DNA of 64,000 bases from a virus. Below the pieces are notes generated by a model. The model saw only the letters and a program-made list of their open reading frames with translations. It was not told where the DNA came from and made no database searches. Below, piece by piece: positions 8,865 to 32,791 of this stretch (positions within the stretch are counted from its first letter, which is position 1; every line of letters begins with the position of its first letter). The stretch lies in the IMG/VR virus record IMGVR_UViG_3300049324_000034, positions 1-64,000 of that record; one strand, 5' to 3'. A program made the position numbers and the translations under genes.

Positions 8865-8941
8865 TTGGCCGCCTGGGAGTCGAACCCAGGGCCGCCCCGC
8901 ACGGCGCCGTGCGGGCCGCTCTGCCGTTGAGCTAGCGGCCA
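8865..8941 (-). tRNA. tRNA-like gene with abnormal anticodon arm
   Basis: Read leftward: 7-bp acceptor TGGCCGC/GCGGCCA, linker TA, D-arm GCTC-AACGGCA-GAGC (close to bacterial tRNA-Gly), T-arm CTGGG-TTCGACT-CCCAG and discriminator A, without encoded CCA. Acceptor, D and T arms are all intact. Between D and T arms, however, there are 28 bases instead of about 23, and they form a perfect palindrome CCCGCACGGC-GCCGTGCGGG. No 7-base anticodon loop fits, and the loop has no T at position 33. A normal decoding role is therefore doubtful. It may be a tRNA mimic, a damaged tRNA or an attachment site. Confidence 0.55.
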
Positions 8942-9392: not shown

Positions 9393-9451
9393 ACAGTAGC
9401 ACCTGTCCGGACAGCTGGACAGCTACGGAACTCACCCAGTAGACTGGCCCT
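9393..9451. promoter_or_regulatory. Divergent promoter with shared GntR-type operator
   Basis: The perfect palindrome CTGTCCGGACAG (9403-9414) runs into GGACAGCTGGACAGC (9409-9423). The stretch GTCCGGACAGCTGGACAGC matches 17 of 19 bases at the GntR gene promoter. Leftward there is TACTGT (9398-9393). Rightward there is TGGACA (9416-9421), an 18-base spacer, TAGACT (9440-9445), six bases and CGTTCCGG. One repressor bound here would block both promoters. Confidence 0.6.
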
Positions 9452-9481
9452 CGTTCCGGTATCACCGAGGGAGGGATAACT

Positions 9482-9775
9482 GTGTCGACTCTGCAAACGC
9501 TTGACGAACGAGGCCCGTGCAAGGTATGCAACGCCACCGTCGTCGTCAGGATTCGCCGCGATGGCGGAATCCCCGTCACCGCTGACGGCTACACCGGTCT
9601 CACCGACGACGGCGACGACTACGTCTGCCGCGACCACTACTGTCCTGTGTGCGGCGGCTACCACACCAACGCAGCCGCGTTCGACCGCTGCGCCCACGAG
9701 GGCGTCGAAGGGGTCGACATGACCCCGCCGTGCAGCATCGAAGCTGCCTACGCGGTGCTCGGGGCGAGCGCATGA
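9482..9775 (+). CDS. Zinc-finger protein ahead of the sigma factor
   Basis: A 97-residue protein starting at GTG after GGAGGG. It has CKVC at residues 13-16 and a second cluster CRDHYCPVCGGYH (about 49-61) with a later CAHEG, which suggests one or two zinc sites. It ends in an ATGA overlap with the ECF sigma gene. Small zinc proteins next to ECF genes are often anti-sigma factors, but the usual HxxxCxxC motif of ZAS anti-sigmas is not seen, so that role is a guess. Confidence 0.7.
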   Translation: MSTLQTLDERGPCKVCNATVVVRIRRDGGIPVTADGYTGLTDDGDDYVCRDHYCPVCGGYHTNAAAFDRCAHEGVEGVDMTPPCSIEAAYAVLGASA

Positions 9776-10488
9776 GTACTGCCGTCGTCCCGCACTTCCG
9801 CTCCAGCATGCGCAAGCGACGCCCCGCTGACGAGGTTGAGCGCGGGGACTGCTGGGATCTCGTCGCATCCGCCCAAGGTGGGGACTCCGCCGCGTTCGGC
9901 ATGCTCTACGAGAGATACGTCGATGTGGTGTTCCGTTTCGTCCTCTACCGCACCGTGGACCGGCCCACCGCCGAAGACCTCACCAGCGAAACGTTCTGCC
10001 GGGCGCTGAAGCGCATCGACTCGGCGCACTACCAGGGCCGTGACGTCGGCGCGTGGTTCGTCACCATCGCCCGCAACCTCGTCCTCGATCACGTGAAGTC
10101 CAGCCGTCAGCGCCTGGAGATGCCTTCAGGCGATGCGATCGACACGGGCGAAAGTGCTTGGCCGAGCCCGGCGAACATGCGTTCAGTGGGGTTCAGCAAG
10201 CAGATGCGCCGCCAGGTCTTCGCGATCGGCCTCACGGAGGACGCCGACCCCGGCGAGGAGGCCACCAATGTGGTCTACCTCGACCACGCGCGCACCGCGC
10301 TGGATCGGGCCCGGAGTCAGCTCACCGCCGGTCAGCAGGAAGTACTGCACCTGCGGTTCGACCTGGAGCTGTCGGTCGCGCAGACGGCCGCCGCGATGGG
10401 TGAGGGCTATAACGAAGGGGCGGTGAAGGCGTTGCAGCACCGCGCGGTGCGCCGGCTGGCTGACCTGCTCCCCGAAACGATCCGGTGA
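9772..10488 (+). CDS. ECF RNA polymerase sigma factor (BldN-like)
   Basis: A 238-residue sigma-70 family protein. The start is the ATGA overlap; the open frame upstream is a shadow of the zinc-protein gene. Region 2 spans about residues 28-95 (AFGMLYERYVDVVFRFVLYR, then AEDLTSETFCRALKRI), and region 4 spans about 175-232 (LTAGQQEVLHLRFDLELSV). Spacing and the AEDLTSETF motif resemble Streptomyces BldN-group ECF factors. A phage- or plasmid-borne sigma could redirect host polymerase to element promoters. The operon promoter carries the GntR-type operator, so it should be silent while the repressor is active. Confidence 0.88.
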   Translation: MSTAVVPHFRSSMRKRRPADEVERGDCWDLVASAQGGDSAAFGMLYERYVDVVFRFVLYRTVDRPTAEDLTSETFCRALKRIDSAHYQGRDVGAWFVTIARNLVLDHVKSSRQRLEMPSGDAIDTGESAWPSPANMRSVGFSKQMRRQVFAIGLTEDADPGEEATNVVYLDHARTALDRARSQLTAGQQEVLHLRFDLELSVAQTAAAMGEGYNEGAVKALQHRAVRRLADLLPETIR

Positions 10489-11641: not shown

Positions 11642-11774
11642 TCGACGCTGGCGACCACCACCCGCCAGCATCACCCCTCCTATCGACGCGCCGGGCTCCC
11701 ACTCCCCGGCGCGTCGATGCGTTCCGGGCCTTCCGGCGTGGCTACATTGACCCGTCCGATCTTCGGAGGTGGTT

Positions 11775-13448
11775 GTGGCCCGTCGCTTCCTGCCGGCCCT
11801 GCGCGCGCGTTTCGCTGGGGCAGGCAGTCAAGGTGGCGGCCTGGACTCCCGAGTGGTCACCGGCCCGCGCGGCTACATCGTTCCCGGCCAGCCCTACGCC
11901 GTCGACTGGGACACCGACCGGGCGGTGCGCGAAGGCTACAGCTGGAACCCGTACGTCTTTCGCTGCGTGGAGTTCATCGCCGCCAATGAGCGCGCCAGAC
12001 AGATCGTGCTGCGCCGTGACAACCCCAACGACGGGGAGGTCATCGACCCCGGCCAGCAGGACCGGGAGCAGAAGCGGATCCTGCGCCGCCTGAACCGCCG
12101 CGCCAATGAGTGGGAGATCGCCCAGGTTTGGCGTCACCGCCTGGCCGCCCAGTTCATGCTGTCCTCACGCGGAGTGTTCGTCGAAGCGGTCCGCACGCGC
12201 GGCGGGGGCATCCATTCCCTGTACCTGCTTGACCCCGATTCGGTTCTCCCCGTACCGGGGCGGCGGAAAAAGAACCCGCAAGATCCGAATGAGATCGGTG
12301 TCGTCACCCCCATCGAGTCATTCCGGGTGACCACTGCCGTAGCCAACGGTTCCCCCCGGTGGGATTGGCGGCCACCGTTTGACCCCAACGCCACCCCGGA
12401 GGACCAGCCCAGCGGCATCGTGTGGCTGCGCTCCCCGCACCCCACGATGTTCGAGCGCGGCATGTCCCCCATGGAAGCGGCCGGCCTGTCCGCTGACCTG
12501 GATCGCTACGCGCGGCTCTACAACAGAAGGTTCATGCTCGAAGATGGCCGGCCGGGCGGCATCCTGGCCGTGAAGGGCCCGCTGGACCCGAACTATGAGG
12601 ACGTGCTGGCGGCGCGGTTCAACGGTGGCCCCAACGTTTCCAACGCCCGCACCACCGTCATCGAAGCCGACGACATGGCGTGGACGGACACGTCCGGGAC
12701 ACCACGGGACACCCAGTGGGCCGACACGATGGACCGCACCAAACGCGAGATCTGTGTCGCGTTCGGACTGCCTGAGTCCGTGGTCTCCGATGCGTCGGGG
12801 CAAACATTCGATAATGCTGATGCTGATTACGCTAAAGCGTGGGAACATTGCATGTTGCCGTTGTTCCGGTTATTGGACGCGCAATTGGATGTCCTGTCAC
12901 CGGGCGGCTATGACGATGAGACTTACCTCTCCCATGATGTTTCCGATGTGTGGGTGCTGGGCCGGCACCAGCGCGCCGATGAGGACCGCGCGGCGGCCGA
13001 CCTCGACCGGGGCGCGATCACCATCGACGAGTACCGCGAAGTGTGCGACCGCGATCCCCTGGACGTCCCTGGCTCGCGCGTGCTGTGGATCCCCTCAGCG
13101 CGACTGGCCATCGACGACGGCAAACCTGAGCACGACGGGGACGCTCACGCCGCCGGCAACGCCCCCATCGGCAACGGGCAGCTGGGTATGGCACCGGCTG
13201 GGGGCGCGGGCGGTGCCGGGGTGCCCAACGCGCTGCCGGCGGGGTTCGGTGTTGATCCGAGCGCGGACCTGGAAGGCCCTGGGCAGGGCGGGGGGGCGCC
13301 GGACGCTGCGGTGATGGCGGGGCCACCGAACCAGCGGGCCATCGGGCAGGCCGACCGCACCGCGCCGGGCAGCGCGGTCGACGCCGCGCCAGTTCAGGTC
13401 AAGAGCCTGGAGGATGAGCAGAGCGGGGGGCGACCCGCTCGCCGCTGA
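11775..13448 (+). CDS. Phage portal protein (HK97 type)
   Basis: A 557-residue portal that forms the dodecameric ring for DNA packaging and exit. I choose GTG 11775 (GGAGGT at six bases) over GTG 11769. Supporting features are the N-terminal core (AVREGYSWNPYVFRCVEFIA), the central HPTMFERGMSPMEAAGLSA segment typical of HK97 portals, and the later FGLPESVVSDASGQTFDNAD. The last 130 residues are Gly/Ala/Pro-rich and end in VKSLEDEQSGGRPARR, where K543-S544 matches the proposed maturation-protease site. A TTA codon lies at residue 366. The 3' end overlaps the MuF gene by 35 bases. No terminase lies just upstream, which is unusual. Confidence 0.93.
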   Translation: MARRFLPALRARFAGAGSQGGGLDSRVVTGPRGYIVPGQPYAVDWDTDRAVREGYSWNPYVFRCVEFIAANERARQIVLRRDNPNDGEVIDPGQQDREQKRILRRLNRRANEWEIAQVWRHRLAAQFMLSSRGVFVEAVRTRGGGIHSLYLLDPDSVLPVPGRRKKNPQDPNEIGVVTPIESFRVTTAVANGSPRWDWRPPFDPNATPEDQPSGIVWLRSPHPTMFERGMSPMEAAGLSADLDRYARLYNRRFMLEDGRPGGILAVKGPLDPNYEDVLAARFNGGPNVSNARTTVIEADDMAWTDTSGTPRDTQWADTMDRTKREICVAFGLPESVVSDASGQTFDNADADYAKAWEHCMLPLFRLLDAQLDVLSPGGYDDETYLSHDVSDVWVLGRHQRADEDRAAADLDRGAITIDEYREVCDRDPLDVPGSRVLWIPSARLAIDDGKPEHDGDAHAAGNAPIGNGQLGMAPAGGAGGAGVPNALPAGFGVDPSADLEGPGQGGGAPDAAVMAGPPNQRAIGQADRTAPGSAVDAAPVQVKSLEDEQSGGRPARR

Positions 13449-18120: not shown

Positions 18121-18390
18121 ATGCGCTACGTGCAGCTCACTATCGGTGCCCGCGTGCACTACCGCAGCCACGGAAGCCCCATCCTGATCGACGGGTCGCA
18201 GGTCCACGCGCCCAAATGCCGTCCTGCTGATGTGGTCGAGATCATGGGCGGCGAGTTGTGCACCCTGTTCGTGATTAACCCGTCGGGCATTTTCTTTGAC
18301 GAGTGCCGCCACGATGAGTCCCGCTGGCCCAAAGAGCCCCCCGGTACTGGCGGCACCTGGCACTGGCCGTGTGACGTGGTTGATGGCTGA
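18121..18390 (+). CDS. Hypothetical small protein
   Basis: An 89-residue protein (starts MRYVQLTIGARVHYRSHG) that appears beta-rich. The exact start is uncertain: ATG 18079 is also in frame and neither has a good SD. Its stop overlaps the next gene by eight bases. No known motif. Confidence 0.6.
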   Translation: MRYVQLTIGARVHYRSHGSPILIDGSQVHAPKCRPADVVEIMGGELCTLFVINPSGIFFDECRHDESRWPKEPPGTGGTWHWPCDVVDG

Positions 18391-20257
18391 CGAGGCGCCG
18401 AAGACCTACAGCGGGGGCATGCTCGCACTGATCCCCGACAATCCCGGTGAGCTGGTTGTTGAGGGCGGTGACCCTGCCGAGCAGATTCACCTCACGCTGC
18501 TCTACCTGGGCGATGACGTGGCGCAGTGGCCGGCGGGGCAAGCCCAGCATCTGAAAGAGCTGATCACGGCGAGCGGGCCGGGTCTGGACGCGGTCACCGC
18601 CCGAATCATGGGCCACGCCGTGCTGAACCCCGACGGGGACGCCGGCAGTGACAAAGAACCGTGCGCGGTCTACCTGGTGGGCGACACGCCCGACCTTGAC
18701 CCGCTGCGCAAATGGGCCACCTGGGTCATGGCCACGGGTGAGGATTACCCGGATCTACCCGACCAGCACACCCCTGTCCTGTGGCATGTGACGGCCGGCT
18801 ACGGGATCGGTATCGACGCGTTGAGCTACATCGGCCCGGTGCGCTTCGCCACGCTGCGTCTCGCGCTGGCTGGTGACGTGCTCGATGTGCCGCTGGGAGA
18901 TCAGGAGGCGGGCATGCCCGGACCACAGGTCAAGTCGATCACGTTCACGCCACCGAAGGCGGTGCGCGACGCGGCGGAGGGTCTGGACGGCCCGTACGCG
19001 CAGGAGGTGATCGAGGGCAAGGCCCTGGATATGTCGGGGCTGATCTGGGTCGCGGGGGCGTGCGGGCCGGCGGGATTGTCGTGGGCTGGGGACATGATGG
19101 GCCGCGCGGAGGTCAAGGCCGCTGTGCGGGAGATGAACATGGGCCGGGTGGTCAACGACGGCCCGCGCCTGGAGTCCATTGATGATCTGCACCGGGCGAT
19201 CGAGGAGCACGGGAACTGCCCGGCTGAGGATCGGCCGGCACGGGTGCGGGTATTACGGGGCCACGCGAAGCGCCTGGGGGCTAACGCGCACACCCTGTCC
19301 CGCATCGACACCCTGGAAGGCGCGAGCACCGACGGCAGCGGTACGAAGTCTGCACCTGAGGATGAGGTTGAGACGAAGTCGTGGGCGCCCGGTAATGCCG
19401 CGCCCGCGCCGTTGCCGCACCTGGCCGCGCTGCACGCCGCGATCCGGGCGCACCCGAAGGTCCGCGACAGCCACAAGGCCAAGCACAAGGAACACCTCGC
19501 GGCCGAGGCGATCCGGTTGGGCGCCGAGCCCCACGTGCACGCCCAGATCGGCTACCTAGAGCCGCACTCGTTCCATGGGAAGTCCCTGGAGGACGGGGTC
19601 GAGGTCAAGGTCACCTCACCGTCGCCGGGGGCGTCGCGGTTGCGTAACTTCTGGGCACGCACCGCTAAGGGCCGGGCGAAGTGGAAGCCGGGCATTCCCG
19701 GTGATTTCAAGCGCCTGCGCCGGCACCTGGCGAAATACGTGCACAATCCGCGCATCCTGAATGGTTTGACCGCGAACATCCACAAGATCGCCACGGGTGA
19801 GTGGCCCGGCAAGAACGCGCACACCGCGAAAGCCAAGCCCGGCAAGCCGATCACTTATGGCGTGAAGTCTCTGGTCGATTGGGAGTGGGATGCCACGGAG
19901 ATCAAGAGTCTGGCTGCGGCCGAGCCGGACCTAGCGGAGATGTTCGCCGGCATCGACGACTGGGGGCAGATCTTCGATGAGCCGTGGGTGGCGGGTTACC
20001 TCGCGGAGCTGGCCGAAGCCCAGGGCGACACCGATGAGGACGCCGAGCCGGCCAGTGAGGTGGAGCGCACCGCCGCGCTGGCCGCGTTGGGCTCCAAGCT
20101 CGTCGCCGACCCCGACCCCGTGGTGGTCGAGGAGGCCGAGCCGGAGCCAGATGCGGACCCGGTCGACGAAGCGCCGTCGGGCGACCCGGACTCCGGCGCT
20201 GATGACGGTGGCTGGGGCGCGCTGTTCGAGGCGGCATCGGCGGAGGCCGTGACGTGA
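18383..20257 (+). CDS. 2H-phosphoesterase head protein with multiple protease sites
   Basis: A 624-residue protein. Residues 1-165 form a 2H phosphoesterase domain with both catalytic motifs: IHLTLLYLGDD (H36, T38) and WHVTAGYG (H135, T137). Such domains cut 2',3'- or 2'-5'-linked and cyclic nucleotides; phage members include the anti-CBASS nuclease Acb1. The rest has two related helical motifs (RGHAKRLGANAHTLSRI and KEHLAAEAIRLGAEPHVHAQ) and an acidic C-terminus. K-S sites stand at 184, 322, 332, 400, 495 and 508, several as VKSL or IKSL. They match the proposed prohead protease motif, so the protein probably enters the head and is cut into pieces. Start at ATG 18383; ATG 18314 is an alternative. 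Confidence 0.75.
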   Translation: MADEAPKTYSGGMLALIPDNPGELVVEGGDPAEQIHLTLLYLGDDVAQWPAGQAQHLKELITASGPGLDAVTARIMGHAVLNPDGDAGSDKEPCAVYLVGDTPDLDPLRKWATWVMATGEDYPDLPDQHTPVLWHVTAGYGIGIDALSYIGPVRFATLRLALAGDVLDVPLGDQEAGMPGPQVKSITFTPPKAVRDAAEGLDGPYAQEVIEGKALDMSGLIWVAGACGPAGLSWAGDMMGRAEVKAAVREMNMGRVVNDGPRLESIDDLHRAIEEHGNCPAEDRPARVRVLRGHAKRLGANAHTLSRIDTLEGASTDGSGTKSAPEDEVETKSWAPGNAAPAPLPHLAALHAAIRAHPKVRDSHKAKHKEHLAAEAIRLGAEPHVHAQIGYLEPHSFHGKSLEDGVEVKVTSPSPGASRLRNFWARTAKGRAKWKPGIPGDFKRLRRHLAKYVHNPRILNGLTANIHKIATGEWPGKNAHTAKAKPGKPITYGVKSLVDWEWDATEIKSLAAAEPDLAEMFAGIDDWGQIFDEPWVAGYLAELAEAQGDTDEDAEPASEVERTAALAALGSKLVADPDPVVVEEAEPEPDADPVDEAPSGDPDSGADDGGWGALFEAASAEAVT

Positions 20258-23200
20258 CCACAACGTTCCCGGATGACGTCGAGACTCCGGAGGACATGGA
20301 CGCGCTGGAATGGAAGGCGCTGCCCACGGCGGAGATGACCTCCCCGCTGACCGGGGTGATCGGTCACGACGACGCCGACGGCACGATCACGGCGCTGGTC
20401 GCGGTGTCCGGGGTGGTCGATGAGGTTGGTGACGTCATCGTGCCAGGGTCGCTGGCTACGGCGATCAAGCGGCTGAAGCCCAAGGGCGTGATGTCACACA
20501 ACTGGTCGGCGAAGGTGTCGCGACTGGTGTGGTCGAAGGAACTCATGCCGGGTGACCCGCAGCTGCCCAGGACGACCCCGCAGGGCGAGCCGTGGCCGGC
20601 CAACGCGGGCGGTCTGCTGATCAAAGCGAAGTACAACCTGGATAAAGAGATCGGCCGCGACGCTTACGCGGACGCCAAGTTCTACGGGCCGGAGGAATGC
20701 TTCTCCATTGGGTACAAAGTGCGCCCCGGTGGCTATCGGATGCGCAGCGGCAAACGTTACCTACACGATTACGATCTGTATGAGTGGTCCCAGGTATTGC
20801 ACGGTGCACATAAGCTCGCGCACTTGACGGGGGTGAAATCCCTTTCCGAGACTGTCGCCGACGCATGGTATGATGACCCTCGTTCCGGTGTCACCGACGA
20901 GGGGACCACTGTGCTTGATGGCGTGGAGTACAAGGGCATCCGTGTCGTGCGCGACGCCGAGTTCTGGGGCATGCCCCTGGGCACCCCCATCAAGGCCGGC
21001 ATGCGCCCCCGCAGCGGCCAGACACCCACCACCGCGCAGATCGCGGCCACCACCGCACCCGGCAGCGCGGACGCCAAGCCTGAGGTCCCCGGCAAGCCCG
21101 GCGTCCCCGGTGCTGCCGGCGTACCTGGCGCGCCCGGTGACCCCGCCCTGGCCCCGCTCGCCCCACCCGGCCCCGGTGTCCCCAAAGCACTGGCCGCGCT
21201 GCACCAGCGCTACCAGGAACTCAATGAGCAAGTCCAGCAGACCCCGGCGTTCGGTGACTCCAGCCTCGCCGAGAACTCCCTGGCGATGCTCGCCCAGTTC
21301 GCCGCCCCCGGTGCCGATGTCCACGCGTCCACCGACGGGCAGCTCGCCGCCGTCCACGGGCCCGCCGGCTGGACAATCGTCGACACCGCCAACGCGGGCA
21401 GCGGCCTATCCAACGCCGCCCAGATCCCCCCCGACGCGCCCCCCGACCAGATCGACGCCGCTCTCGAACACCTCACCCAGATCGGCATCCCCTGGGATGA
21501 CATCGAAGCGCGTAAGAAGCGGTGGGCCAACGCGAAGCAGAAGACGGCCGACCAGCAGGCCGTCCGTGACGTCCTGTCTCAGATCACCCCGTTCTCCGCC
21601 CCCGCACCCGTCGGCGAGGACGACGCGGCCGGTGCCCGTGATGACGCCGAGTCGGCGATCGCCACCCAAGACCGTGATGGGCTCGCTGAAGCCCTCACGC
21701 GGATGGGCCTGCCGCCCGATCAGGACCCCCGTGAGATGGCCGCCAGTCTGCTGGTGCTGCCATCGGAGGTCGCCGCCAAACGTCTCGACGCGGTCGCCGC
21801 GCAAGCCGTGATCCCCCAGGTAGGTGCTGCCCCCGATGGCGGGCAGCAAAAGCCGGGCGTCGCAGGCCCGGCTCCGACGGTTCCACCGGGGGCAGCACCG
21901 CACGCTAACCCGCCCGCGCCCGTTAAGCCGAACCCGGTAGGCACCGCCCACGCTGACGGCACCACCACCGTGACGGCCGGTGCGAACACCATCCCCGGCG
22001 GCCACGACCTGCCCCAGACGCCGCCCGCTGCCCCGGAAGCGCCGGCCGCGCCCGCTGATGACCGCAAGTACGGCACCCCGGTGCTGGTCAACACCTACGG
22101 GGTGAAGCCCGGTAGCTACCCCACAGTGAAAGCCAGTGAGGTCCGTACGGGTGACCACGTCATGCTGTCGCGCCACGATGGCGGCAAGGTCACCCAGGCC
22201 AAGCCGGGCCGCACCGGGCAAACACTGATCACCTACGACGACGGCACGGGTGGCGGCACCCAAACCCGTGGGGTTAAGAACGGTTCCGCGCTGCCGCTGG
22301 TGTCCGCCGGCACGCCGGCTGTCGACCCGAGCAAGCCCCAGGCCGCGCCCGAGCACGAGTACAAGCCCACCGGCAACCACAACGCCCCCGAGAAGCTGAC
22401 CGACGCGCAGCTCGCGGCGGAGTCTGAGGCAGCGCACAAGCGGCACATGGCGGCCCGGTCGAACAATCTGCCCAAGAACTCCCTGGAGTACAGCGACTCG
22501 AAGCTCGCCGCTACCCGCTTCGGTGACGAGGCACGCCGCCGGGCCGCCGCGACCGTCGCGGAGTCGACACCGGCCCCCGAGGTCGACGCTCACCCGCTGG
22601 TCACCCCGGCCGCCCCCGATGACGCCGCTCTGCTCGCCCAACTGTCCGGGCATGTCACCGCGCCGCAGTTGTCCGCCGCGCTGGCGACCATCGCCCGCGA
22701 CCAGAGCGACCCGGCGCTCGCCCACGCGGCGACCATCGCCCGTGGCAGTCTGGATTCCCCGTCGGCGAAGACGCCGGAGAAGCTGGCCGCTGAGCTGATC
22801 CGGGTTAAGAACCAGATGGCGCAGGCGCCTGACTCGGCTACTTTGCACGCCACTCTGGACGGCCTGGAGCGCATCGTTAAGGCGCTGAAGGCCGATAACT
22901 CGAAGATCCAGGTGGGCGGCAAGGCCCGCGCGGGCTCCCCGCAGCGCCAACTCCTGCACGAGAACCTGGCCGAGTACACCCGCCACGTTCGGGGCGCGCT
23001 GCACGCTGACGAGAACCCCGACAAGCCCGCTGACCAGCCTCCGGCGACCGCACCGGAGGGCACCGGAGGGCCGGAGGCCAAGCCTGACCCGCTGCGGCCC
23101 GCGCCGGGGCAGGTCAACTACACCGCGATTCAGAAGCGCAGTCACCCCGCCTATCGGGACGCGGCACTGCGCCAGCTTGATGACGCTGAGCTTGCGTCGG

Positions 23201-26200
23201 TCAAGCGGGAAGCCGCCCGACGCGGTGGGCACGGCGCCAACATGGCCGACAGTGTCCACACGGAGGAGATCCGTCGTCGCATCACTCCCGACGAGCTGCG
23301 CAAGCGCGCCGACAAGACGGGCGGTGGCGCGTCCGACGGTGAAGCCAAGCGGATGCGGGACCGCGCCGACGATTACGAGCGTCGCGACGCCGCCGGCATC
23401 GGCCGCCATGACTTCGCGGCCCTGCCGTTGGGCGAGCACCCGAAGACACCGGAGTCCACTGGCGGGGAAGTGCCCGAAGGCACCCCGGACGGCACCGTGC
23501 CCGTGCCCCCGGAGGTCGCCGACTCCGCTCACCGCATCCGGGGTGAGGCCCTGGGCCTCACGGACGGCCCCGATGGGCAGGAGGAGGTCACCCAGGAGGT
23601 CGCCGACCGCCAGGAGCGGGTGGCGGCACTGCTGGAGACCGGGGAGACCGGCCTGGCCGACCAGACCGACCCGCAGCTGCACGAAACCCGCAAAGACCTC
23701 ACCGACGAGCTGGCGCTTCAGGACGAGCTGCACCGTCGCGACACCGAACGCAAGCGGGAAGCGGCGGTCAAGAAGGCGGAGGCCGGGGCGTCTTCCGTGT
23801 CGGCGACGGACGCCCCGGCCGGGCCGGAAGATACCGGCCCGAAAGTCCGTCCCGGTGTCGCGGGTGCCGCTGAGGATCTGGGCGACGCCCTGAACGCGAC
23901 CCCGCGCGATGACGCTGCGGTCGCGGTCGCCGCTGAACGCTTCGCGAAGATGATGCGCCGCCACGGGGAGTCCACGGCGTTCGACGACATCCGCACCGCC
24001 ATCGGTGACGGTGACGTTCACACCGCGATCGCTTCCGGGAAGCTCAAGGCCGGCATGCTGTTCACCGCCGCCGGGGCGTTGCGTGAACAGCGTCGGGTGA
24101 AGCGCAATGAGGGCGCGAAGGCCCGCCGGCTCGCGAAGCGCCTGGACCGTGACCGGATCAAGTCCCTGATCGGTTCAGTGGATGCGGAGTTGCGTCGCCG
24201 TAAGGGCGCGACCGAAGATGGCAAGCGCGGCGCGGCGAACGTGGCCATTGGTCCGGTTTCGAGCACCGCCGCGCCGTCCAAGACCGCCCCGGCCGCCGAG
24301 CCCGCACCGCACCCGCAGCAGGCCCGTCGCGACGAACGCGACGCCCGCCTAGCCGCCGACGGCAACCGCGTTCAGCGCGCCCAGGAGCACATGCGGGAAG
24401 CCCGCACCGCCGCCGATGGCGGTGATTTCGAGGGCGCATTCGCTCACCTCGATCAGGCGCAGGAACTGAATCCGGAGCGCCAGCGACTCTGGGATAAAGC
24501 GCGTGGAATCGTCACCGGGCAGCGCGACCGCAGTAAGTCCACCGCTACACCAGCGGAGCCCGATCAGGCTCGTCGTGCTGAGTTCGATAAGGCCGTCGCT
24601 GAGGACTTCCCCCCCGACGCCTCTGTGCGACTGTTTCAAGACTGGGATCGGGACCACTCCCGCCCTGACCTGGCCAGCGATGTCACCGCTGTTCGCCGAG
24701 CCCGCAATGGTTACGTCACTGTGCGGGAGTCCAAGGGCACCACAGTTGACGTGTTCCCACGGCAGCTAGAGCTGGTCGGCAGCGCCCAGGGTGCACAATC
24801 GCCCCAGAGAGAGGGTGATGATCGTGGGAGTTCTGGCGAGACAAACCGAAGCGTGGTACCGGACGTACCAGCCGCAGACGTACGCGGGGATCAAGGACAA
24901 GCAGACGTTCTTCGCCGATCTGGAGGAGCAAGCCCGCCAGCAGATACAGCAGACAGCCGACCAGCTGGCCGGGCCGGATCCGGAGGGGGAGACCTACCAG
25001 GAGAAGCTGGGGCGCCTGAACGCCGCGCAGCAAGCGGCGACAGAGAAGGTGATGCGGGAGTTCCTGATGAGCCCGCCGCCCCCGAACGCCCCGGACAACG
25101 CGCTGCCACTGCCGGCGACACCGGACCCGTCGATGGTGCCGACGCAGGACCCGATAGATCAGGCGCTGACTCAAGCGCTGGCGGACTTCCAGGAGGCGGC
25201 CGACGAGCTGAGGCGTCAGGAGAGGGAGAGCGCGAAGGCGGCGATGCCGACACTGCCGGCGCGCCCAGCGCACCTGAGTTAACCGAAGCCGACCAGCCCA
25301 GCGCCGACATTGGGCAGGTCGATGCGATCCCCGACACCGGGGAGTCCTTTCACCCCACCGGGCTGGACGACTTCGCTCCGGCCGGTAAGAAGTCGAAGCT
25401 CGAAGCGAACCTCGCGGCGCTGCGCACGTTGCGCCAGTTGCAAGACGACCGCCGCAGCGCCACCCCCGAAGAGCAGGCCGTGCTCGCTCGCTGGGCCGGT
25501 TGGGGTGGACTGCCGGAAGTCTTCGACGACAACAAACCCGAGTACGCGAAACAACGGGAGGAGCTGCGTGGACTGCTGTCGGACTCTGAATGGGCAGAGG
25601 CTCGCCGCAATACCCTCAACGCCCACTACACCGACCCCCGCGTGGTGCAATCGCTGTGGAAGGCAATGGGAGATCTGGGGTTCGACGGTGGTCGCGTCCT
25701 CGAACCCGGCTCCGGATCCGGAACGTTCATCGGATTCGCGCCCGGCAACGCCGACATGGTCGGAGTCGAGTTGGACTCGACGACAGCTGCGATCTCTCGT
25801 GCCCTCTACCCGCACGCGACGATAAGAAACGAGTCCTACGCGGCCACCCGGCTACCGGCCGGCTCGTTCGACGCGACGATCGGCAACGTCCCCTTCGGTG
25901 ACTTCGCCCTGACCGACCGGGTGCACAACCCCAATCGCAAGATGTCGATCCACAACCATTTCATCGCCAAGGCCCTGGCCCAAACCAAACCCGGCGGGCT
26001 AGTCACCCTGCTCACGTCGCGCTACACCCTGGACTCGAAAGACTCCGCCGCGCGCAAGAAGCTGGCCGAGCTGGGCGACCTGGTTGGTGCGGTGCGCCTG
26101 CCTACGGGGTCGCACTCCCGGATGTCGGGCACCGATGTCATTGAGGACGCCCTGATCTTCCGGCGCCGGGAGCCCGACGCGGCACCGTTGACGTCGCAGG

Positions 26201-29200
26201 ACTGGGTGAACTCCCACGATCAGGACATCAACGGTCACACGGTCACCATCAACGACTACTTCACCGCCCATCCCGAGCAAGTGCTGGGTGAGGTCACCGC
26301 AGAGGCCGGCCAGTACGGCAGCGGGTCACTGATCGTCAAGGGCGACAAGACGATGGCGGACCTGCCGGCCGCGCTGGACCGGATCGTGGAGTCGGCGAAA
26401 GCCGACGGCATCACCGCGTCGCCCCGCATGGAAGGCCTCACGGCGTTCACCACCCCCGACGATGACCGCCACGAAGGCCACATCGCTGCCCACGAAGACG
26501 GCACATTCACCCAAGCCGAACAGGGCACCGCCGTGCCCCTGGACGTGCCCGCCAAGCACGCTGACGCGGTGCGCGGGCTGATCGGCCTACGCGACACCCT
26601 GCGGTCCCTGCTGGCCGCTGAAGCGGCTTCGGTGTCGGACTCCCCGGACATCAAGGCGCTGCGCAAGCAACTCAACGACCGCTACGACGCGTTCGTGAAA
26701 AAGTACGGCCCGGTCAACCACTACACGCTGACCAAATCTGGGGCGCGCAAGCCCGACCCGGCCCGCAACCTGTTCCGCAAAGACCCCATGTCGGCGATCG
26801 TCCGCGCCCTGGGCGCTTACGACGCCGAGACCGGCACCGAGGCGAAGACCAGCATCTTCCGCAAGCGCGCCAGCACCCCACGGGAGATCCCCACCCACGC
26901 CGACAGTCCCGAGGACGCCGTCGCGCTGTCCATGGACACCTACGGCCGGGTGGACCTCCCCGCGATCGCCACCATGCTGGGCACCGATGAGGCCGGCGCA
27001 CGGGAACGCCTGGGCGATCTGGTCTTCGAGCAGCCGCCACTGTCAGCGGCCGACGCCGACGCCGCGTTCCGCGCCCACATCGAAGAGGCGTCCGGGATTG
27101 CCAGCGACGGCGGGCGTTTCGGTGGGATCTCAGCGGGCCTGAACCTCGACGACGCCCCGGACACCTCCGTGCTGGACTCCGTCGGGGAGGCGGTGCGCTC
27201 CGAAGGTTCCCTGGAGCCGGCCGCCGCGTATTTGTCCGGCAACGTGCGCCGCAAGCTCGCCGCCGCCCGCGAGGCCGCCAAGCGCGACGACCGCTTCGCC
27301 AAGAACGTCACCGCGCTGGAAGCGGTGATCCCCCCGGACCTGGGTGTCGACGAGGTCGACGGGCGTCTGGGCGCGGCGTGGATCCCCGCCGATGACGTTC
27401 GGGCGTTCATGGTGGAGCTGCTTTCCGACGGTGATGACCCGTACAACTCCATCAAGGTCTCCACGTCAGGTGGCGGCATCTGGACCGTGGAAGGCGGCCA
27501 GTGGGGCACTAAGGCCACTGAGGAGTGGGGCACTGACCGGCTTTCCGCCGGGGAGATCATCCAGTCCCTGCTGGAGCAGCGATCCATTCAGGTCCGCGAC
27601 ACCATCAAAGACGCCGACGGTAAGTCGAAGTCCTACCCGAACTTAGAAGCGACCACGGCCGCCCAGGCCAAGGCTGAGGAGTTGTCGGACCGGTTCTCCG
27701 AGTGGCTGTGGGAGGACTCCGATCGCACTCGGCGCCTGCTGGCCGCCTACAACAACCAGTTCAACGCGATCCGGTTGCGTTCCTACGACGACATGCCACG
27801 GGTGTTCCCCGGCATGGCCGACAGCTTCGACCCTTTCGATCACCAGGTGGGCGCGGTCAACCGCATGGTGTCCGAGCCGTGCGCGTTGCTCGCCCACGTT
27901 GTCGGCGCCGGCAAGACCGCCGAGATGGCGATGGGCACCGCTGAGCTGAAGCGCCTGGGTCTGGCGAACAAGCCCGCCATTGTCATCCCCAACCACATGC
28001 TGGAGCAGTTCTCCAGCGAATACATCCAAATCTACCCCAACGCTAAAATCTTGGCCGCCGGTACCGATGACCTGACCGGGGATAAGCGCCGGGAGTTCGT
28101 CGCCCGCGCGGCCACGGGTGAGTGGGATGCCATTATCCTCACTCAAAAGGCCATGGAAGCCATTCCGATGTCGCGCCCGGCGATGCAAGCCTACATCGAC
28201 CGGGAAATGGCGACGATGAAAGCGCAGCTCGCGTCTGCGCAGGCATCGGCGGCGGGTGACTCCGCTAAAGAGAAGACCGTTAAGAAAATGGAGAACTCGC
28301 TGATCAAGGCTGAGGAGGCCCTGAAGGCGAAGCTGGACAAGGTCAAAGACGCCGGGGTGAGCTGGGAGGAGACCGGCATCGACTACCTGTGTGTTGATGA
28401 GGCGCATATGTACTCCAACCTGCGCACCATCTCCAACATCCAGGGCGCGGGGGCGACCGGGTCGGACATGGCGTCGGACCTGCACATGAAAATGGAGCAC
28501 CTGCGGGCGAACAATAAGTCGGGCCGGGTGGGGACGTTCGCCACGGGCACCCCGATCCGCAACACGGTCACCCAGGCTTACATCATGCAGCGCTACCTCG
28601 ACCCTGAGACGTTGCGCCAGGCCGGTATTCACTCATTCGACCAGTGGGCGGCGACGTTCGGCAAGACTGTTGATGAAATGGAACTCAAGCCCGAGGGCAC
28701 CGGGTTCCGTCAGACCACTCGTTTCGCGAAGTTCCGCAACGTCCCTGAGTTGCTCAGATTGTTCCACCTGTTCGCCGATGTGAAGATGGCCGATGACCTG
28801 AACCTGAAGACCCCGAACCTGACCACGGGTGGGGTGCAGAACGTCATCGTGCCGGCGTCGCCGGAGCTGTCCGCCTATGTCCAGGAGCTGGGCCAGCGCG
28901 CCGAAGATGTCCGCAACGGCAAAGTCAAGCCCGAAGAAGACAACATGCTCAAGATCTCCGGTGATGGCCGCAAGGCCGCCCTGAGCATGGCGTTGGTGGG
29001 GCAGAAGCATCAGCCGGGCAAGATCGAACAAGCGGCCGACAACATCTACAAGATCTGGGATGAGAACAAAGACCGGCCCGTGCCGAAAGACATCAACGAC
29101 CCCGCTGGTGGCGACGACCCGCCGCCCGGTGGCATGCAGATCGTGTTCTGCGACATGGGCACCCCCGGCGGTGCCGGCATGAACGCGTATCAGAAGTTGC

Positions 29201-31188
29201 GTGACGAGCTGGCCGCCCGTGGCATGGACCCGAAGTCGATCCGGTTCATGCACGAAGCCAAAAACGATCGGGAAAAGGCGGAGCTGTTCGCCGCCGCCCG
29301 CAACGGTCAGGTCTCCGTGCTCGTGGGGTCGACGGAAAAAATGGGTGTCGGCACCAACGTGCAGCGCCGCGCCGTCGCGCTGCACCACCTCGACGCCCCG
29401 TGGCGCCCCAGCGATGTGGAGCAGCGCGACGGCCGGATCATGCGCCAGGGCAACACCAACGCGGAGGTAGCGATCTTCCGCTACGTCACTGAGGGCAGTT
29501 TTGATGCCTATATGTGGCAGACGCTGGAGCGCAAAAAGAAGTTCATCGACCAGATCATGCGCGGCAAGATGGGCGACGTCCGGGAGATCGAAGACGTCGG
29601 CGACACCGCCCTGTCCTACGCCGAAGTCAAGGCCCTAGCCACCGGGAACCCGCTGCTCATGGACAAGGCGAAAGTCGACGTCACGGTCGGCAAGCTCACC
29701 CGCCTGGAGCGCCAGCACGCCAGGACCCAAACCAACCTGCGCCGCGACGTGGTCTCCTACGGGGCCAACGCGGAACAAGCCGACGCTGACGCCGCCGCCT
29801 ACAACGCCGCGATCGCCAAGCGCACCGACATCAGCGGTGACAAGTACTCCATCAACGTCGCCGGCATTACCGCCCGGACCCGCGCCGACGGGGCGACCCT
29901 GCTGAAGTCGGCCATGCAGGACCAGATCCGGGAACGCCGCTACGGCTACGCCGGCTCGAAACCCAAACCGCTGGCCACCATCGGCGGTCACGTGCTGCTG
30001 GGCCAGCCCGAGATCCACTACGACAAGCTCGGCACGAAGCGCTTCGGGATGACGCTGTCCTGGGAGGGCCTGCCCGGCACCATCGTGCACATCAGCCCCG
30101 ACGACGTCGACAAGCTCGGCGCGGGCATCAACACCACCCTGACGAACTCCCTGAACAATCTGGAGTTCCGCCGCGACCTCCAGGTCGACCGGGCGACGTC
30201 GCTGCGCAGCGAAGCCGAGACGATGAAGGCCCGCATCGGGGTGCCGTTCGCCCACGCTGAGGCCCTGAAGGAAGCGACAGCGGAATCAGCCCGGTTGCAG
30301 GCCGCCATGGAGGCCGCCGGCATGAAGGGCGACACCGGCCCGCAACAGGATGAGGCCACTAAGGGCCTGGCCACGGCACGAACGAAGGCCACCGTGAAGG
30401 TCGGTCACATGGGCCGGGGCAGCGCCGGGCCGGAGAAGGACCGCCTGAAGCGGTTCTCCATCCCCGCCGCGTCCCCTGACGCCGCCGCGTCACCGGATGG
30501 CACCCTGGCTGCCCTGGGCAGCGGCGACAAGCTCCAGGTGTTCATGACGTCGGACGGGGAGCTGGTCCCCCGACCCGATGACGCGCGCGGGGCGATCGAC
30601 AACGTCCACGCCCTGCTCGATGACCTCGCGGCGCTGGACTTCCCGTGGGCCGAGGGGCACTGGGCGATCAACCGTCGCATTCAGCCCGGCTACAGCGGTG
30701 GCTACGAGGCCCCGGACTACTCCAAGCCTTATGAGGAGCGCGAGCGGATCCGCAAGGCGAAAGAGGCCGCGCGACAGGCCGAGGTTGATGCGGAGCGGGC
30801 GAAAATCGACGCGGTGTGGAAGCGTCACCTCGTGGGCGCTGCGGAGGAGAAGACGGCCGAGTCGCTGGTCGATGAGTGGACGATGCTGCGCGCCGCCCGG
30901 TTGGGTGTCGAGTTCAAGCTGCGCACCGAGCAGGGCCCCAAACCGTCGGACACGGGCGCGGATGGCCCCGACACTGACGGCGATGACGATGTGGAGTCCT
31001 ACGAGGACACCGTCATTGAGGGCTACCGCTACGTCATGGACGCCGCCGGCATCCTCGTGAAGGTCGCGCCCTGCCCGGAGTGCGGCAACGACATCATGAT
31101 CCCCGCCTACGGGATGGTCGGCACGGCACCGTGCCCGTCGTGCGGCACGGGCGCGTTGCAGGGCCGGGCGACCGCCACGGTGGGCTAG
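20254..31188 (+). CDS. Prohead protease fused to giant polyvalent methylase-helicase protein
   Basis: A 3,644-residue fusion starting at a GTGA overlap. Residues 25-185 are an HK97-type prohead protease (MSHNW at 80-84 with H82; FSIGYKV from 150 with S151). TGVKSL (192-197) directly after it is a likely self-cleavage site. Collagen-like, disordered and helical regions follow. From about 1690 comes a DarB-like module: WAGWGGLPEVF (about 1748), N6-methylase motif I LEPGSGSGTF (from 1816), motif IV GNVPFG (1877-1882). Then an SNF2-type helicase: Walker A VGAGKT (2550-2555), DEAH (2715-2718), GTPIRN and EQRDGRIMRQGN. A zinc ribbon (CPEC from 3607, later CPSC) ends it. Such polyvalent proteins are packaged in phage heads to resist host restriction. 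Between 24818 and 25282 a separate gene occupies another frame. Confidence 0.9.
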   Translation: MTTTFPDDVETPEDMDALEWKALPTAEMTSPLTGVIGHDDADGTITALVAVSGVVDEVGDVIVPGSLATAIKRLKPKGVMSHNWSAKVSRLVWSKELMPGDPQLPRTTPQGEPWPANAGGLLIKAKYNLDKEIGRDAYADAKFYGPEECFSIGYKVRPGGYRMRSGKRYLHDYDLYEWSQVLHGAHKLAHLTGVKSLSETVADAWYDDPRSGVTDEGTTVLDGVEYKGIRVVRDAEFWGMPLGTPIKAGMRPRSGQTPTTAQIAATTAPGSADAKPEVPGKPGVPGAAGVPGAPGDPALAPLAPPGPGVPKALAALHQRYQELNEQVQQTPAFGDSSLAENSLAMLAQFAAPGADVHASTDGQLAAVHGPAGWTIVDTANAGSGLSNAAQIPPDAPPDQIDAALEHLTQIGIPWDDIEARKKRWANAKQKTADQQAVRDVLSQITPFSAPAPVGEDDAAGARDDAESAIATQDRDGLAEALTRMGLPPDQDPREMAASLLVLPSEVAAKRLDAVAAQAVIPQVGAAPDGGQQKPGVAGPAPTVPPGAAPHANPPAPVKPNPVGTAHADGTTTVTAGANTIPGGHDLPQTPPAAPEAPAAPADDRKYGTPVLVNTYGVKPGSYPTVKASEVRTGDHVMLSRHDGGKVTQAKPGRTGQTLITYDDGTGGGTQTRGVKNGSALPLVSAGTPAVDPSKPQAAPEHEYKPTGNHNAPEKLTDAQLAAESEAAHKRHMAARSNNLPKNSLEYSDSKLAATRFGDEARRRAAATVAESTPAPEVDAHPLVTPAAPDDAALLAQLSGHVTAPQLSAALATIARDQSDPALAHAATIARGSLDSPSAKTPEKLAAELIRVKNQMAQAPDSATLHATLDGLERIVKALKADNSKIQVGGKARAGSPQRQLLHENLAEYTRHVRGALHADENPDKPADQPPATAPEGTGGPEAKPDPLRPAPGQVNYTAIQKRSHPAYRDAALRQLDDAELASVKREAARRGGHGANMADSVHTEEIRRRITPDELRKRADKTGGGASDGEAKRMRDRADDYERRDAAGIGRHDFAALPLGEHPKTPESTGGEVPEGTPDGTVPVPPEVADSAHRIRGEALGLTDGPDGQEEVTQEVADRQERVAALLETGETGLADQTDPQLHETRKDLTDELALQDELHRRDTERKREAAVKKAEAGASSVSATDAPAGPEDTGPKVRPGVAGAAEDLGDALNATPRDDAAVAVAAERFAKMMRRHGESTAFDDIRTAIGDGDVHTAIASGKLKAGMLFTAAGALREQRRVKRNEGAKARRLAKRLDRDRIKSLIGSVDAELRRRKGATEDGKRGAANVAIGPVSSTAAPSKTAPAAEPAPHPQQARRDERDARLAADGNRVQRAQEHMREARTAADGGDFEGAFAHLDQAQELNPERQRLWDKARGIVTGQRDRSKSTATPAEPDQARRAEFDKAVAEDFPPDASVRLFQDWDRDHSRPDLASDVTAVRRARNGYVTVRESKGTTVDVFPRQLELVGSAQGAQSPQREGDDRGSSGETNRSVVPDVPAADVRGDQGQADVLRRSGGASPPADTADSRPAGRAGSGGGDLPGEAGAPERRAASGDREGDAGVPDEPAAPERPGQRAATAGDTGPVDGADAGPDRSGADSSAGGLPGGGRRAEASGEGEREGGDADTAGAPSAPELTEADQPSADIGQVDAIPDTGESFHPTGLDDFAPAGKKSKLEANLAALRTLRQLQDDRRSATPEEQAVLARWAGWGGLPEVFDDNKPEYAKQREELRGLLSDSEWAEARRNTLNAHYTDPRVVQSLWKAMGDLGFDGGRVLEPGSGSGTFIGFAPGNADMVGVELDSTTAAISRALYPHATIRNESYAATRLPAGSFDATIGNVPFGDFALTDRVHNPNRKMSIHNHFIAKALAQTKPGGLVTLLTSRYTLDSKDSAARKKLAELGDLVGAVRLPTGSHSRMSGTDVIEDALIFRRREPDAAPLTSQDWVNSHDQDINGHTVTINDYFTAHPEQVLGEVTAEAGQYGSGSLIVKGDKTMADLPAALDRIVESAKADGITASPRMEGLTAFTTPDDDRHEGHIAAHEDGTFTQAEQGTAVPLDVPAKHADAVRGLIGLRDTLRSLLAAEAASVSDSPDIKALRKQLNDRYDAFVKKYGPVNHYTLTKSGARKPDPARNLFRKDPMSAIVRALGAYDAETGTEAKTSIFRKRASTPREIPTHADSPEDAVALSMDTYGRVDLPAIATMLGTDEAGARERLGDLVFEQPPLSAADADAAFRAHIEEASGIASDGGRFGGISAGLNLDDAPDTSVLDSVGEAVRSEGSLEPAAAYLSGNVRRKLAAAREAAKRDDRFAKNVTALEAVIPPDLGVDEVDGRLGAAWIPADDVRAFMVELLSDGDDPYNSIKVSTSGGGIWTVEGGQWGTKATEEWGTDRLSAGEIIQSLLEQRSIQVRDTIKDADGKSKSYPNLEATTAAQAKAEELSDRFSEWLWEDSDRTRRLLAAYNNQFNAIRLRSYDDMPRVFPGMADSFDPFDHQVGAVNRMVSEPCALLAHVVGAGKTAEMAMGTAELKRLGLANKPAIVIPNHMLEQFSSEYIQIYPNAKILAAGTDDLTGDKRREFVARAATGEWDAIILTQKAMEAIPMSRPAMQAYIDREMATMKAQLASAQASAAGDSAKEKTVKKMENSLIKAEEALKAKLDKVKDAGVSWEETGIDYLCVDEAHMYSNLRTISNIQGAGATGSDMASDLHMKMEHLRANNKSGRVGTFATGTPIRNTVTQAYIMQRYLDPETLRQAGIHSFDQWAATFGKTVDEMELKPEGTGFRQTTRFAKFRNVPELLRLFHLFADVKMADDLNLKTPNLTTGGVQNVIVPASPELSAYVQELGQRAEDVRNGKVKPEEDNMLKISGDGRKAALSMALVGQKHQPGKIEQAADNIYKIWDENKDRPVPKDINDPAGGDDPPPGGMQIVFCDMGTPGGAGMNAYQKLRDELAARGMDPKSIRFMHEAKNDREKAELFAAARNGQVSVLVGSTEKMGVGTNVQRRAVALHHLDAPWRPSDVEQRDGRIMRQGNTNAEVAIFRYVTEGSFDAYMWQTLERKKKFIDQIMRGKMGDVREIEDVGDTALSYAEVKALATGNPLLMDKAKVDVTVGKLTRLERQHARTQTNLRRDVVSYGANAEQADADAAAYNAAIAKRTDISGDKYSINVAGITARTRADGATLLKSAMQDQIRERRYGYAGSKPKPLATIGGHVLLGQPEIHYDKLGTKRFGMTLSWEGLPGTIVHISPDDVDKLGAGINTTLTNSLNNLEFRRDLQVDRATSLRSEAETMKARIGVPFAHAEALKEATAESARLQAAMEAAGMKGDTGPQQDEATKGLATARTKATVKVGHMGRGSAGPEKDRLKRFSIPAASPDAAASPDGTLAALGSGDKLQVFMTSDGELVPRPDDARGAIDNVHALLDDLAALDFPWAEGHWAINRRIQPGYSGGYEAPDYSKPYEERERIRKAKEAARQAEVDAERAKIDAVWKRHLVGAAEEKTAESLVDEWTMLRAARLGVEFKLRTEQGPKPSDTGADGPDTDGDDDVESYEDTVIEGYRYVMDAAGILVKVAPCPECGNDIMIPAYGMVGTAPCPSCGTGALQGRATATVG
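20869..20913 (+). promoter_or_regulatory. Internal promoter and ribosome site inside the giant gene
   Basis: TATGAT (20869-20874), six bases, then CGTTCCGGTGTCACCGA, followed by GAGGGGA and an in-frame GTG at 20911. The stretch matches the sigma-operon promoter leader (CGTTCCGGTATCACCGA at 9452) at 16 of 17 bases. It would yield a protein lacking the first 219 residues, that is, the polyvalent part without the protease. Confidence 0.5.
24818..25282 (+). CDS. Overlapping gene embedded in the giant ORF (+1 frame)
   Basis: A 154-residue protein in the +1 frame of the giant gene, beginning MIVGVLARQTEAWYRTYQPQ and mostly helical (FFADLEEQARQQIQQTADQL, later LADFQEAADELRRQERESA). Third codon positions here are strongly G/C in this frame and A/T-rich in the giant frame, so this is the frame under coding selection. 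AGAGAGAGGG lies just before; GTG 24815 or 24827 are alternative starts. In the giant protein the same DNA reads as a disordered Gly/Ala/Asp/Arg linker. Family not recognised; a partner of the methylase-helicase is plausible. Confidence 0.75.
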   Translation: MIVGVLARQTEAWYRTYQPQTYAGIKDKQTFFADLEEQARQQIQQTADQLAGPDPEGETYQEKLGRLNAAQQAATEKVMREFLMSPPPPNAPDNALPLPATPDPSMVPTQDPIDQALTQALADFQEAADELRRQERESAKAAMPTLPARPAHLS

Positions 31189-31252: not shown

Positions 31253-31435
31253 GGGGAGACCTTCACTGTAGCTGACATGGCGGCGTGTCGCTGCCGCCAT
31301 TTGCGTCACCAGTGATCTACTGCGCGCAACGCGCCTGGTACTGACCGGTGCGAGTCCCCGAGCACGATGGGGGTTCGCTTCGGCCTACCCGCTTCCCGTG
31401 CTCGAACACACACCGAGCGCAAGGGAGACGCGGCA

Positions 31436-32791
31436 GTGACCGCACCTACTCTCGACCGCCACGACAAAGACCTCATTGATCGTGGCAAGGTCGAAGTGAA
31501 GTCCATCAACGCACAAATGGACGAGATCACCAAGTCAGGTTGGCTCGACGGCGAAGGCAACATGCACGTCAAGCCCGAAGCCCTCACCGAGTTCAAGGCC
31601 CTGCTGGCCAAGGCTGAGGAGACTCACGGCATCGTCACCGCCCTGGAGCGCAAGGGCCTCCTGGATGAGTGGCTGGACGCCCCTGCCGGCACCCCGGTGG
31701 CGATGGGTGGAGCCCCGGCCGGTATCGGCATGACGGCGATGCCCGAGTACAAGTCATTGGGGCAGCGCTTCGTCGAGTCGGATGCTTTCAAGAGCCACCG
31801 TGACTCCGGTTTCATGGACAAGGCGTTCGCTATCGAGGGCGAGGAGATCACCTCCCCCAACGGCGGCGTGCAGTACAAGGATGTCCACTCCGGCAGCATC
31901 GGCACCGTTGTGCACCCCGGTTTCGGCACGGTGCAGCGGGCCCCGATGGTGAGCGCACCGATGCTCACCTGGCGGGTGCGTGACCTGTTCCCGCAGATGA
32001 ACACCAACTCGGTGATGATTGAGTTCATCGAGGAGCTTGGGTTCGTCGATGCGGGCGACAACGCTGCGGCGATGATTCCCGAGCGCGACGGTCTGAGTCC
32101 GGAGAACTTCGGTCTGAAGCCGAAGTCCCAGATCCACTTCAACATCAAGACCACGCCGATCCGGACTCTCGCCCACTGGGTGCCCGCGTCGCGCAACGTG
32201 CTTGATGACGAGCCGCAGTTGCGGGGAATCATCGACACCCGGCTGCTTTACGGCCTGCGGTTGGTCGAAGACCAGCAGCTGCTTCTGGGTGACGGCACGG
32301 GACAGAACCTGCTGGGCATCTTCAACACCCCAGGTATCCAGTTGTTCCCCTCTGGCGGCTATCACGCACCGACTAACGAGACCTACGTCGATGCCATTCG
32401 CCGGGGCGCCACTCGCGTCATGTTGGCACAGTATGACCCGACCGGCGTGGTTGTGCACCCTTACGACTGGGAGCGCATGGAATTGACTAAGGACACCCAG
32501 GGCCGCTATTTGGTCGCGGGGTCGGTCACTTCCGGTGCGGAGAAGCGGCTGTGGCAGATGCCCGTTGTCGCTACTCCGGCGTGCCCTGAGGGCACCGCGC
32601 TGATCGGCGCTTTCGGGTTGGGCGCGCAGGTTTTCGACCGCATGCAGTCCAACATCCGCACCGCTGACCAGCATGCGGACTTCTTTATTCGTAACGCCAT
32701 CGTGGTCCTGGCCGAAGAGCGGCTGGGGTTGGCCGTCTACCGTCCCGCTGCCATGGTCAAGGTCAACCTGGCCGCCGCGATCGCAGCCTGA
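31436..32791 (+). CDS. Major capsid protein (HK97 family)
   Basis: A 451-residue precursor of the shell protein. GTG start after AAGGGAG; the longer frame upstream is non-coding leader. Residues 1-105 are a charged helical delta domain that should act as internal scaffold. EYKSLGQRFVESDAF follows, and K106-S107 corresponds to the HK97 gp5 cut at K103|S104, whose mature chain also starts SLG. The mature 345 residues show the usual HK97 segments (LGFVDAGDNAAAMIPERDGL, the RTLAHWVPASRNVLDDEPQL P-domain region, LLGDGTGQNLLGIFNTPGI). A second K-S lies at 22-23. Confidence 0.95.
   Translation: MTAPTLDRHDKDLIDRGKVEVKSINAQMDEITKSGWLDGEGNMHVKPEALTEFKALLAKAEETHGIVTALERKGLLDEWLDAPAGTPVAMGGAPAGIGMTAMPEYKSLGQRFVESDAFKSHRDSGFMDKAFAIEGEEITSPNGGVQYKDVHSGSIGTVVHPGFGTVQRAPMVSAPMLTWRVRDLFPQMNTNSVMIEFIEELGFVDAGDNAAAMIPERDGLSPENFGLKPKSQIHFNIKTTPIRTLAHWVPASRNVLDDEPQLRGIIDTRLLYGLRLVEDQQLLLGDGTGQNLLGIFNTPGIQLFPSGGYHAPTNETYVDAIRRGATRVMLAQYDPTGVVVHPYDWERMELTKDTQGRYLVAGSVTSGAEKRLWQMPVVATPACPEGTALIGAFGLGAQVFDRMQSNIRTADQHADFFIRNAIVVLAEERLGLAVYRPAAMVKVNLAAAIAA

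Follow-up and report, generated by a model that had tools for sequence, protein, structure and literature searches.

The window, a 64,000-nucleotide stretch (positions 1 to 64,000) of the IMG/VR virus record IMGVR_UViG_3300049324_000034, belongs to a record of 121,538 bases that is related to phages of actinobacteria. Its head and tail genes occur in the order portal, MuF, small genes, a 2H-like gene, a giant fusion gene, major capsid protein (MCP), tail sheath, and tape measure. The fusion gene is stop-free throughout, begins with a GTG codon preceded by GGAGG 7 nt upstream, and overlaps the upstream gene by 4 nt. The genes on which the analysis draws are listed here, with a slash marking a boundary or a candidate cut within a motif.

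11769 to 13448, plus strand: portal protein (phrog_2662, E = 3e-38), with the C terminus QVK/SLEDEQ
18296 to 20257 (start codon provisional), plus strand: upstream gene with a 2H-phosphoesterase-like head, repeats, VKS-type sites, and an acidic tail (phrog_18402, phrog_2659, and phrog_6439)
20254 to 31188, plus strand: whole fusion gene, encoding 3644 amino acids (388 kDa)
31367 to 32791, plus strand: MCP, the next gene downstream (phrog_10, E = 4e-47), with the delta-domain boundary EYK/SLG

An RNA polymerase sigma-factor-like gene (9649 to 10488; phrog_1740, E = 5e-18) lies upstream of the head genes, and a tRNA-like gene, its anticodon unassigned, occupies 8864 to 8941 on the minus strand. 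Near the sigma-factor-like gene, a 40-bp stretch (9445 to 9484) is 83% identical to positions 20874 to 20913 in the fusion linker.

Within the fusion gene, the following parts were distinguished.

20380 to 20835, plus strand: prohead protease core, residues 43 to 194 (alignments with HK97 gp4 and homologues; AlphaFold pLDDT of about 90)
20497 to 20499, 20704 to 20706, and 20782 to 20784, plus strand: codons of the predicted catalytic residues H82, S151, and E177, respectively (alignment)
20833 to 20841, plus strand: candidate autocleavage site 1, V194-K195/S196, cut after K195 (conservation; alignment with MK/S of HK97 gp4)
20839 to 20934, plus strand: disordered linker, residues 196 to 227 (AlphaFold pLDDT below 50, with disorder over residues 195 to 229)
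20926 to 20937, plus strand: candidate cleavage site 2, E225-Y226-K227/G228 (an ExK motif just upstream of the tag)
20935 to 21003, plus strand: head-cargo tag, residues 228 to 250 (GIRVVRDAEFWGMPLGTPIKAGM), recognized by its recurrence in other head-region effectors
23419 to 24213, plus strand: conserved all-helical "glue" region, residues 1056 to 1320 (BLASTP/phmmer, alignment, and AlphaFold)
25558 to 26214, plus strand: DarB-like N6-adenine methylase, residues 1769 to 1987 (27% identity to P1 DarB, E = 7e-21; phrog_10089)
27682 to 29595, plus strand: DarB-like SNF2/SF2 helicase, residues 2477 to 3114 (P1 DarB, E = 3e-20 and 4e-15; Pfam Helicase_C, E = 1.8e-5)
31072 to 31161, plus strand: zinc-ribbon-like C-terminal end, CPECG...CPSCG (read in the translation)

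The sequence-only reading had proposed that an HK97-type prohead protease and a DarB-like methylase-helicase are encoded together in a single frame, and both the ORF and the homology searches bear this out. It had also suggested looking for the same fusion in related phages. Six other IMG/VR contigs were found to encode protease and DarB without a break in the frame, with protease regions about 71 to 98% identical; one further relative is truncated ahead of the DarB part. dN/dS was below 1 in every segment compared, junction included, with a value of 0.21 against the closest relative and junction values of 0.5 to 0.7 against more distant relatives. Because the fusion recurs in six contigs and is, by these comparisons, conserved under purifying selection, we regard it as real, and misassembly, a frame artefact, and chance were ruled out on the same grounds.

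The N-terminal part of the protein resembles known prohead proteases at several levels. Residues 15 to 199 share 43 to 48% identity (tblastn) with the capsid maturation proteases that Gordonia phages and Brevibacterium phage Cantare encode, and the profile phrog_80, "head maturation protease," matches with an E value of 2.5e-14. TIGR01543 matched at E = 2e-7, which is under its curated cut-off; Pfam S78 gave no match for the window protein and scored above cut-off in close homologues, and a Pfam search with the whole window protein returned Helicase_C only. H82, S151, and E177 align with H65, S114, and E141 of HK97 gp4, in an alignment whose exact gap beside the histidine is ambiguous, and all three are invariant across 29 aligned sequences. 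Two of them, H82 and S151, had already been picked out as catalytic from the letters, and the refuting outcome named at that stage, a failure of the catalytic residues to line up with HK97 gp4, did not occur. Structure prediction of the protease part, likewise proposed earlier, gave a confident AlphaFold core (residues 43 to 194), and the 16 best PDB matches to this model were all T4 gp21 or herpesvirus proteases, with probabilities of up to 1.00 and a modest best E value of 0.007. The predicted structure belongs to the assemblin/herpesvirus protease fold, and homology identifies the N-terminal 195 residues as the prohead protease of the window virus. Like HK97 gp4 (Peptidase S78), it has the H/S/E positions, a K/S after the domain, and a gene just before that of the MCP; in contrast, HK97 gp4 has 225 amino acids and no cargo.

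The C-terminal part contains a methylase-helicase dyad homologous to P1 DarB by sequence comparison. BLASTP aligned P1 DarB to the window protein in three blocks, corresponding to the methylase, the N part of the helicase, and the C part of the helicase (E = 7e-21, 3e-20, and 4e-15), and the profile phrog_10089, "DarB-like antirestriction," matched with E = 0. The motifs that the sequence-only reading had listed were all recovered at the residues it gave, both in the protease region (H82, S151, and TGVKSL at 192 to 197) and in the methylase (LEPGSGSG at 1816 and GNVPFG at 1877) and helicase (VGAGKT at 2550, DEAH at 2715, and DGRIMRQGN at 3059). P1 DarB is a virion-packaged head protein that shields DNA in cis against type I restriction, and its first 30 residues suffice for capsid targeting; the P1 Dar proteins are reported to have no shared consensus signal (PMC9024508). 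By analogy, an anti-restriction role may be assigned to the DarB module of the window. The two proteins are alike in combining an N6-methylase with an SNF2-type helicase. They differ in that P1 DarB (2255 amino acids) is separate from the protease gene pro, with darB and pro flanking prt. With protease, methylase, and helicase in one chain encoded between the portal and MCP genes, the fusion fits the broad class of polyvalent proteins.

Between protease and cargo, two candidate cleavage sites flank the linker. At site 1, GVK195/SL directly follows the folded core, V194-K195 is conserved, and AlphaFold pLDDT drops below 50 exactly at this position. Site 1 also resembles K103/S104 of HK97 gp5 and the K/S of the window MCP. 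Our cleavage consensus was anchored on HK97 gp5, of which the mature form begins at S104, after K103 (chain 1ohg), with SLG following K103, and on the K/SLG boundary, mostly ExK/SLG, in over 50 capsid proteins whose genes follow those of related proteases. In the window, the pattern [VIYE]KS occurs 8 times in head proteins, the protease included, and 0 times in tail-side proteins (Fisher p = 0.0017). At site 2, the sequence right after EYK227/G228 is IRVVRDAEFWGMPLGTPIKAGM, which is the tag; the P1' residue is Gly rather than Ser, which counts against cleavage there. Both K195/S196 and K227/G228 are predicted, candidate sites that resemble the ExK/SLG boundary of capsid proteins. The earlier proposal of cleavage within TGVKSL remains credible, given the conservation of V194-K195 and the match to MK/S of HK97 gp4, K103/S104 of gp5, and ExK/SLG of MCPs. 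With a second candidate site directly before the tag, however, the first residue of the mature cargo may be G228 and not S196.

The junction also contains a weak in-frame start, a GTG at codon 220 with GAGG, from which separate synthesis of the cargo might also occur. In an alternative account, a restart near codon 220 would yield free cargo and the full chain would serve as protease, with the fusion mostly setting relative amounts. A GTG or TTG codon with a 4-nt Shine-Dalgarno match lies 9 to 12 codons before the tag in five of the seven DarB-type sequences (the window, L009, L012, L013, and L014), as this account would have it. Against it, these weak signals arise from Glu-Gly codons, are absent in L011 and L047, and do not occur at that distance in other fusion lineages. 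We consider such a two-product arrangement quite improbable, and separate expression of the cargo from an internal start was set aside because the signals are weak and unconserved.

The tag that follows site 2 has the consensus VRDxxxWGxPxGTPI, which many other effectors of actinophage head regions share. Its carriers include ADP-ribosyltransferases, HNH and zincin polyvalent proteins, MuF fusions, other protease fusions, and DalanDe gp27 in its N-terminal part; the genes for most of these lie between those for portal and capsid. In the AlphaFold model of the window protein, the region of residues 230 to 255 is partly ordered again after the linker. Of the 39 nonredundant copies of the tag, 25 are preceded by an ExK motif no more than 11 residues away, versus 1.2 expected and a maximum of 5 in 2000 trials; these copies came from homology searches and are not fully independent, and the upstream ExK was outside the counting pattern. 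The tag may be a marker of where mature head cargo begins. Three PHROG profiles (phrog_21406, phrog_960, and phrog_3895) contain the tag, and none of the three has a description of it.

Further occurrences were noted alongside these. Mass-spectrometry data have been published for Gordonia phages (PMC4524720). GMA2 Orf10, annotated as a "putative structural protein" (a hint only), has the tag, as do Gordonia phage head-region ADP-ribosyltransferases at or near their N termini (L016, 9965 to 10933; L006, 8862 to 9977). Outside actinobacteria, the cyanobacterial Microcystis phage Mwe-JY05 has the tag VRTAAGAARYGVPIGSVI in a gene annotated as "capsid maturation protease" (L019, 7786 to 7851). In L013, a small frame near 19562, flanked by the fusion on one side and the capsid gene on the other, bears a further copy of the tag, as does a small frame near 3250 in L039.

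Searches that used the protease alignment and the tag as queries yielded 72 protease loci and 20 tag loci, and at least eight further lineages combine an N-terminal protease with a long C-terminal part lacking DarB. L036 has the same protease and tag followed by a zeta-toxin-type kinase (Pfam, E = 1e-13) and a ParB-like domain. In L027, L035, L038, L042, L049, and L056, the same protease and tag precede a giant cargo with no named content, apart from an HEYGH motif read by eye in the end region of L049. Streptomyces phages, prophages, and phage-plasmids have NUDIX or 2H/LigT domains after the protease; these protease-NUDIX (L005 and L074) and protease-2H (L055, L061, and L109) fusions all lack the tag. 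Pfam found no cargo domain in most of the non-DarB fusions. Across these loci, the cargo is swapped behind a constant protease, which fits the protease as carrier. A 2H-like gene is kept upstream of the DarB-type fusions and has several candidate K/S sites; since Streptomyces relatives have the 2H domain on the protease chain itself, the same modules appear to be shuffled between neighboring genes. In one protease locus, L073 (9584 to 12460), an intein-like stretch of about 335 amino acids, starting with CADADTEILTQRG, splits the protease immediately ahead of the catalytic-serine motif, and Pfam S78 resumes at residue 617.

The cargo, with its long helices and low complexity, could instead have a structural or scaffolding part in the prohead, and the DarB domains would then act in the infected cell before assembly rather than after injection. 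Such a role would agree with the all-helical region at residues 1056 to 1320, which recurs in 13 of the 14 other fusions in the comparison, whether they carry DarB or not, while the cargo end differs; this region had no match in the viral structure library. Stand-alone relatives, moreover, have an acidic, scaffold-like tail where the cargo sits in the fusions. However, enzymes with unrelated functions take the place of the cargo in other fusions, the acidic scaffold-like tail is found in the upstream gene instead, and P1 DarB is a virion protein. A scaffold role for the cargo is hardly probable at all.

A stronger competitor, which we nevertheless judge unlikely, holds that loading is signaled by the tag rather than by the protease. 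Packaging of the cargo would go through its own N-terminal tag, in the manner of P1 DarB or T4 internal proteins, and the fusion would be a by-product of gene order (translational economy). Unfused effectors bearing the tag at the N terminus or close to it are encoded between portal and MCP (Chis gp22 and gp23 and Cantare gp11) or in the head region (Stormageddon gp19), and they favor the tag. Several tagged proteins begin with a short peptide ending in ExK, like a cleavable targeting peptide, and P1 DarB needs just 30 N-terminal residues. On the other side, the tag comes after the presumed cut, which would place it in the mature cargo and outside any propeptide that is removed, and the tagless NUDIX and 2H fusions, which are still fused, favor the protease as carrier. 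Loading by the protease and loading by the tag may both operate.

We infer that the fusion is a protease-cargo polyprotein, in which the protease carries the cargo into the prohead and then frees it, and we consider this the likely reading; loading followed by release is well supported by the sequence comparisons. The N-terminal protease domain would assemble inside the prohead and, being attached, would bring the 363-kDa DarB-like cargo along. At maturation, the protease would cut the capsid protein and itself at sites after Lys and before Ser, Ala, or Gly, the portal being a probable further substrate. Self-cuts in the linker at K195/S196 and K227/G228 would leave the cargo in the head, and hence in the virion, with the conserved N-terminal tag IRVVRDAEFWGMPLGTPI. 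On infection, the cargo would be ejected with the DNA and would methylate or occupy it, defeating type I restriction as P1 DarB does. There is a precedent for self-removal of a C-terminal extension: the prohead protease of SPN3US removes its own C-terminal propeptide (PMC10052503).

Further points count against the protease-cargo model. HK97-like proheads contain some 60 copies of the protease. If each copy were fused to a 363-kDa cargo, the load would be about 22 MDa, a stoichiometry problem that means free protease may have to be made too. In addition, protease and DarB of P1 come from separate genes and DarB is still packaged, so fusion is not needed in principle. A broader version of the model is tentative, with a chance somewhat short of even: a general modular head-loading platform in actinobacterial phages, in which an N-terminal maturation protease or, in other genes, a short peptide would import exchangeable effectors. 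Once freed at ExK, the effectors would keep a conserved N-terminal tag, VR[D/T]...[W/Y]GxPxGTPI, on which their retention or ejection would depend. DarB would then be one cargo among many.

Several known systems share parts of this arrangement. In polyvalent proteins, assemblin-like peptidases are described as "always" C-terminal, with a proposed processing role during assembly (Iyer et al. 2017, PMC5512222). The window protein is likewise a multidomain phage head cargo with a prohead-protease-fold domain, but its peptidase is N-terminal, so it falls outside the C-terminal assemblin type, and the peptidase is followed by two cleavage-like sites, the tag, and a swappable cargo. Gordonia phage DalanDe gp27 has the same protease family and about 1100 amino acids with the same tag near the N terminus; its order is reversed, with cargo first and protease last, which broadly fits the order of Iyer et al., and Pfam finds the protease alone. 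Streptomyces phage Gilgamesh gp52 and its phage-plasmid relatives have an N-terminal S78 protease, K/S sites, and a C-terminal enzyme, as in the window, but are about 640 to 830 amino acids long, carry NUDIX or 2H cargo, and lack the tag; a 4624-amino-acid giant, Gilgamesh gp48, is encoded by a separate gene nearby. T4 internal proteins are also head-loaded effectors freed by the prohead protease, with a short targeting peptide (mentioned in PMC9024508), whereas in the window the protease itself is the fused partner. The fusion of cargo to the maturation protease, which the sequence-only reading stressed, is new in part: protease domains in polyvalent proteins are known (PMC5512222) and Streptomyces protease-NUDIX and protease-2H fusions exist. 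Within a limited library, we found no description in the literature of N-terminal protease-cargo fusions (NUDIX, DarB, or effector-loading) or of the tag, and the N-terminal order, the DarB cargo, the cargo swapping, and the tag appear to be new.

The fusion offers a direct hypothesis for how very large anti-defense enzymes enter phage heads. It would also be a scaffold worth trying for loading foreign proteins into capsids. Together, the tag and the candidate cleavage rule make dozens of unannotated actinophage effectors recognizable.
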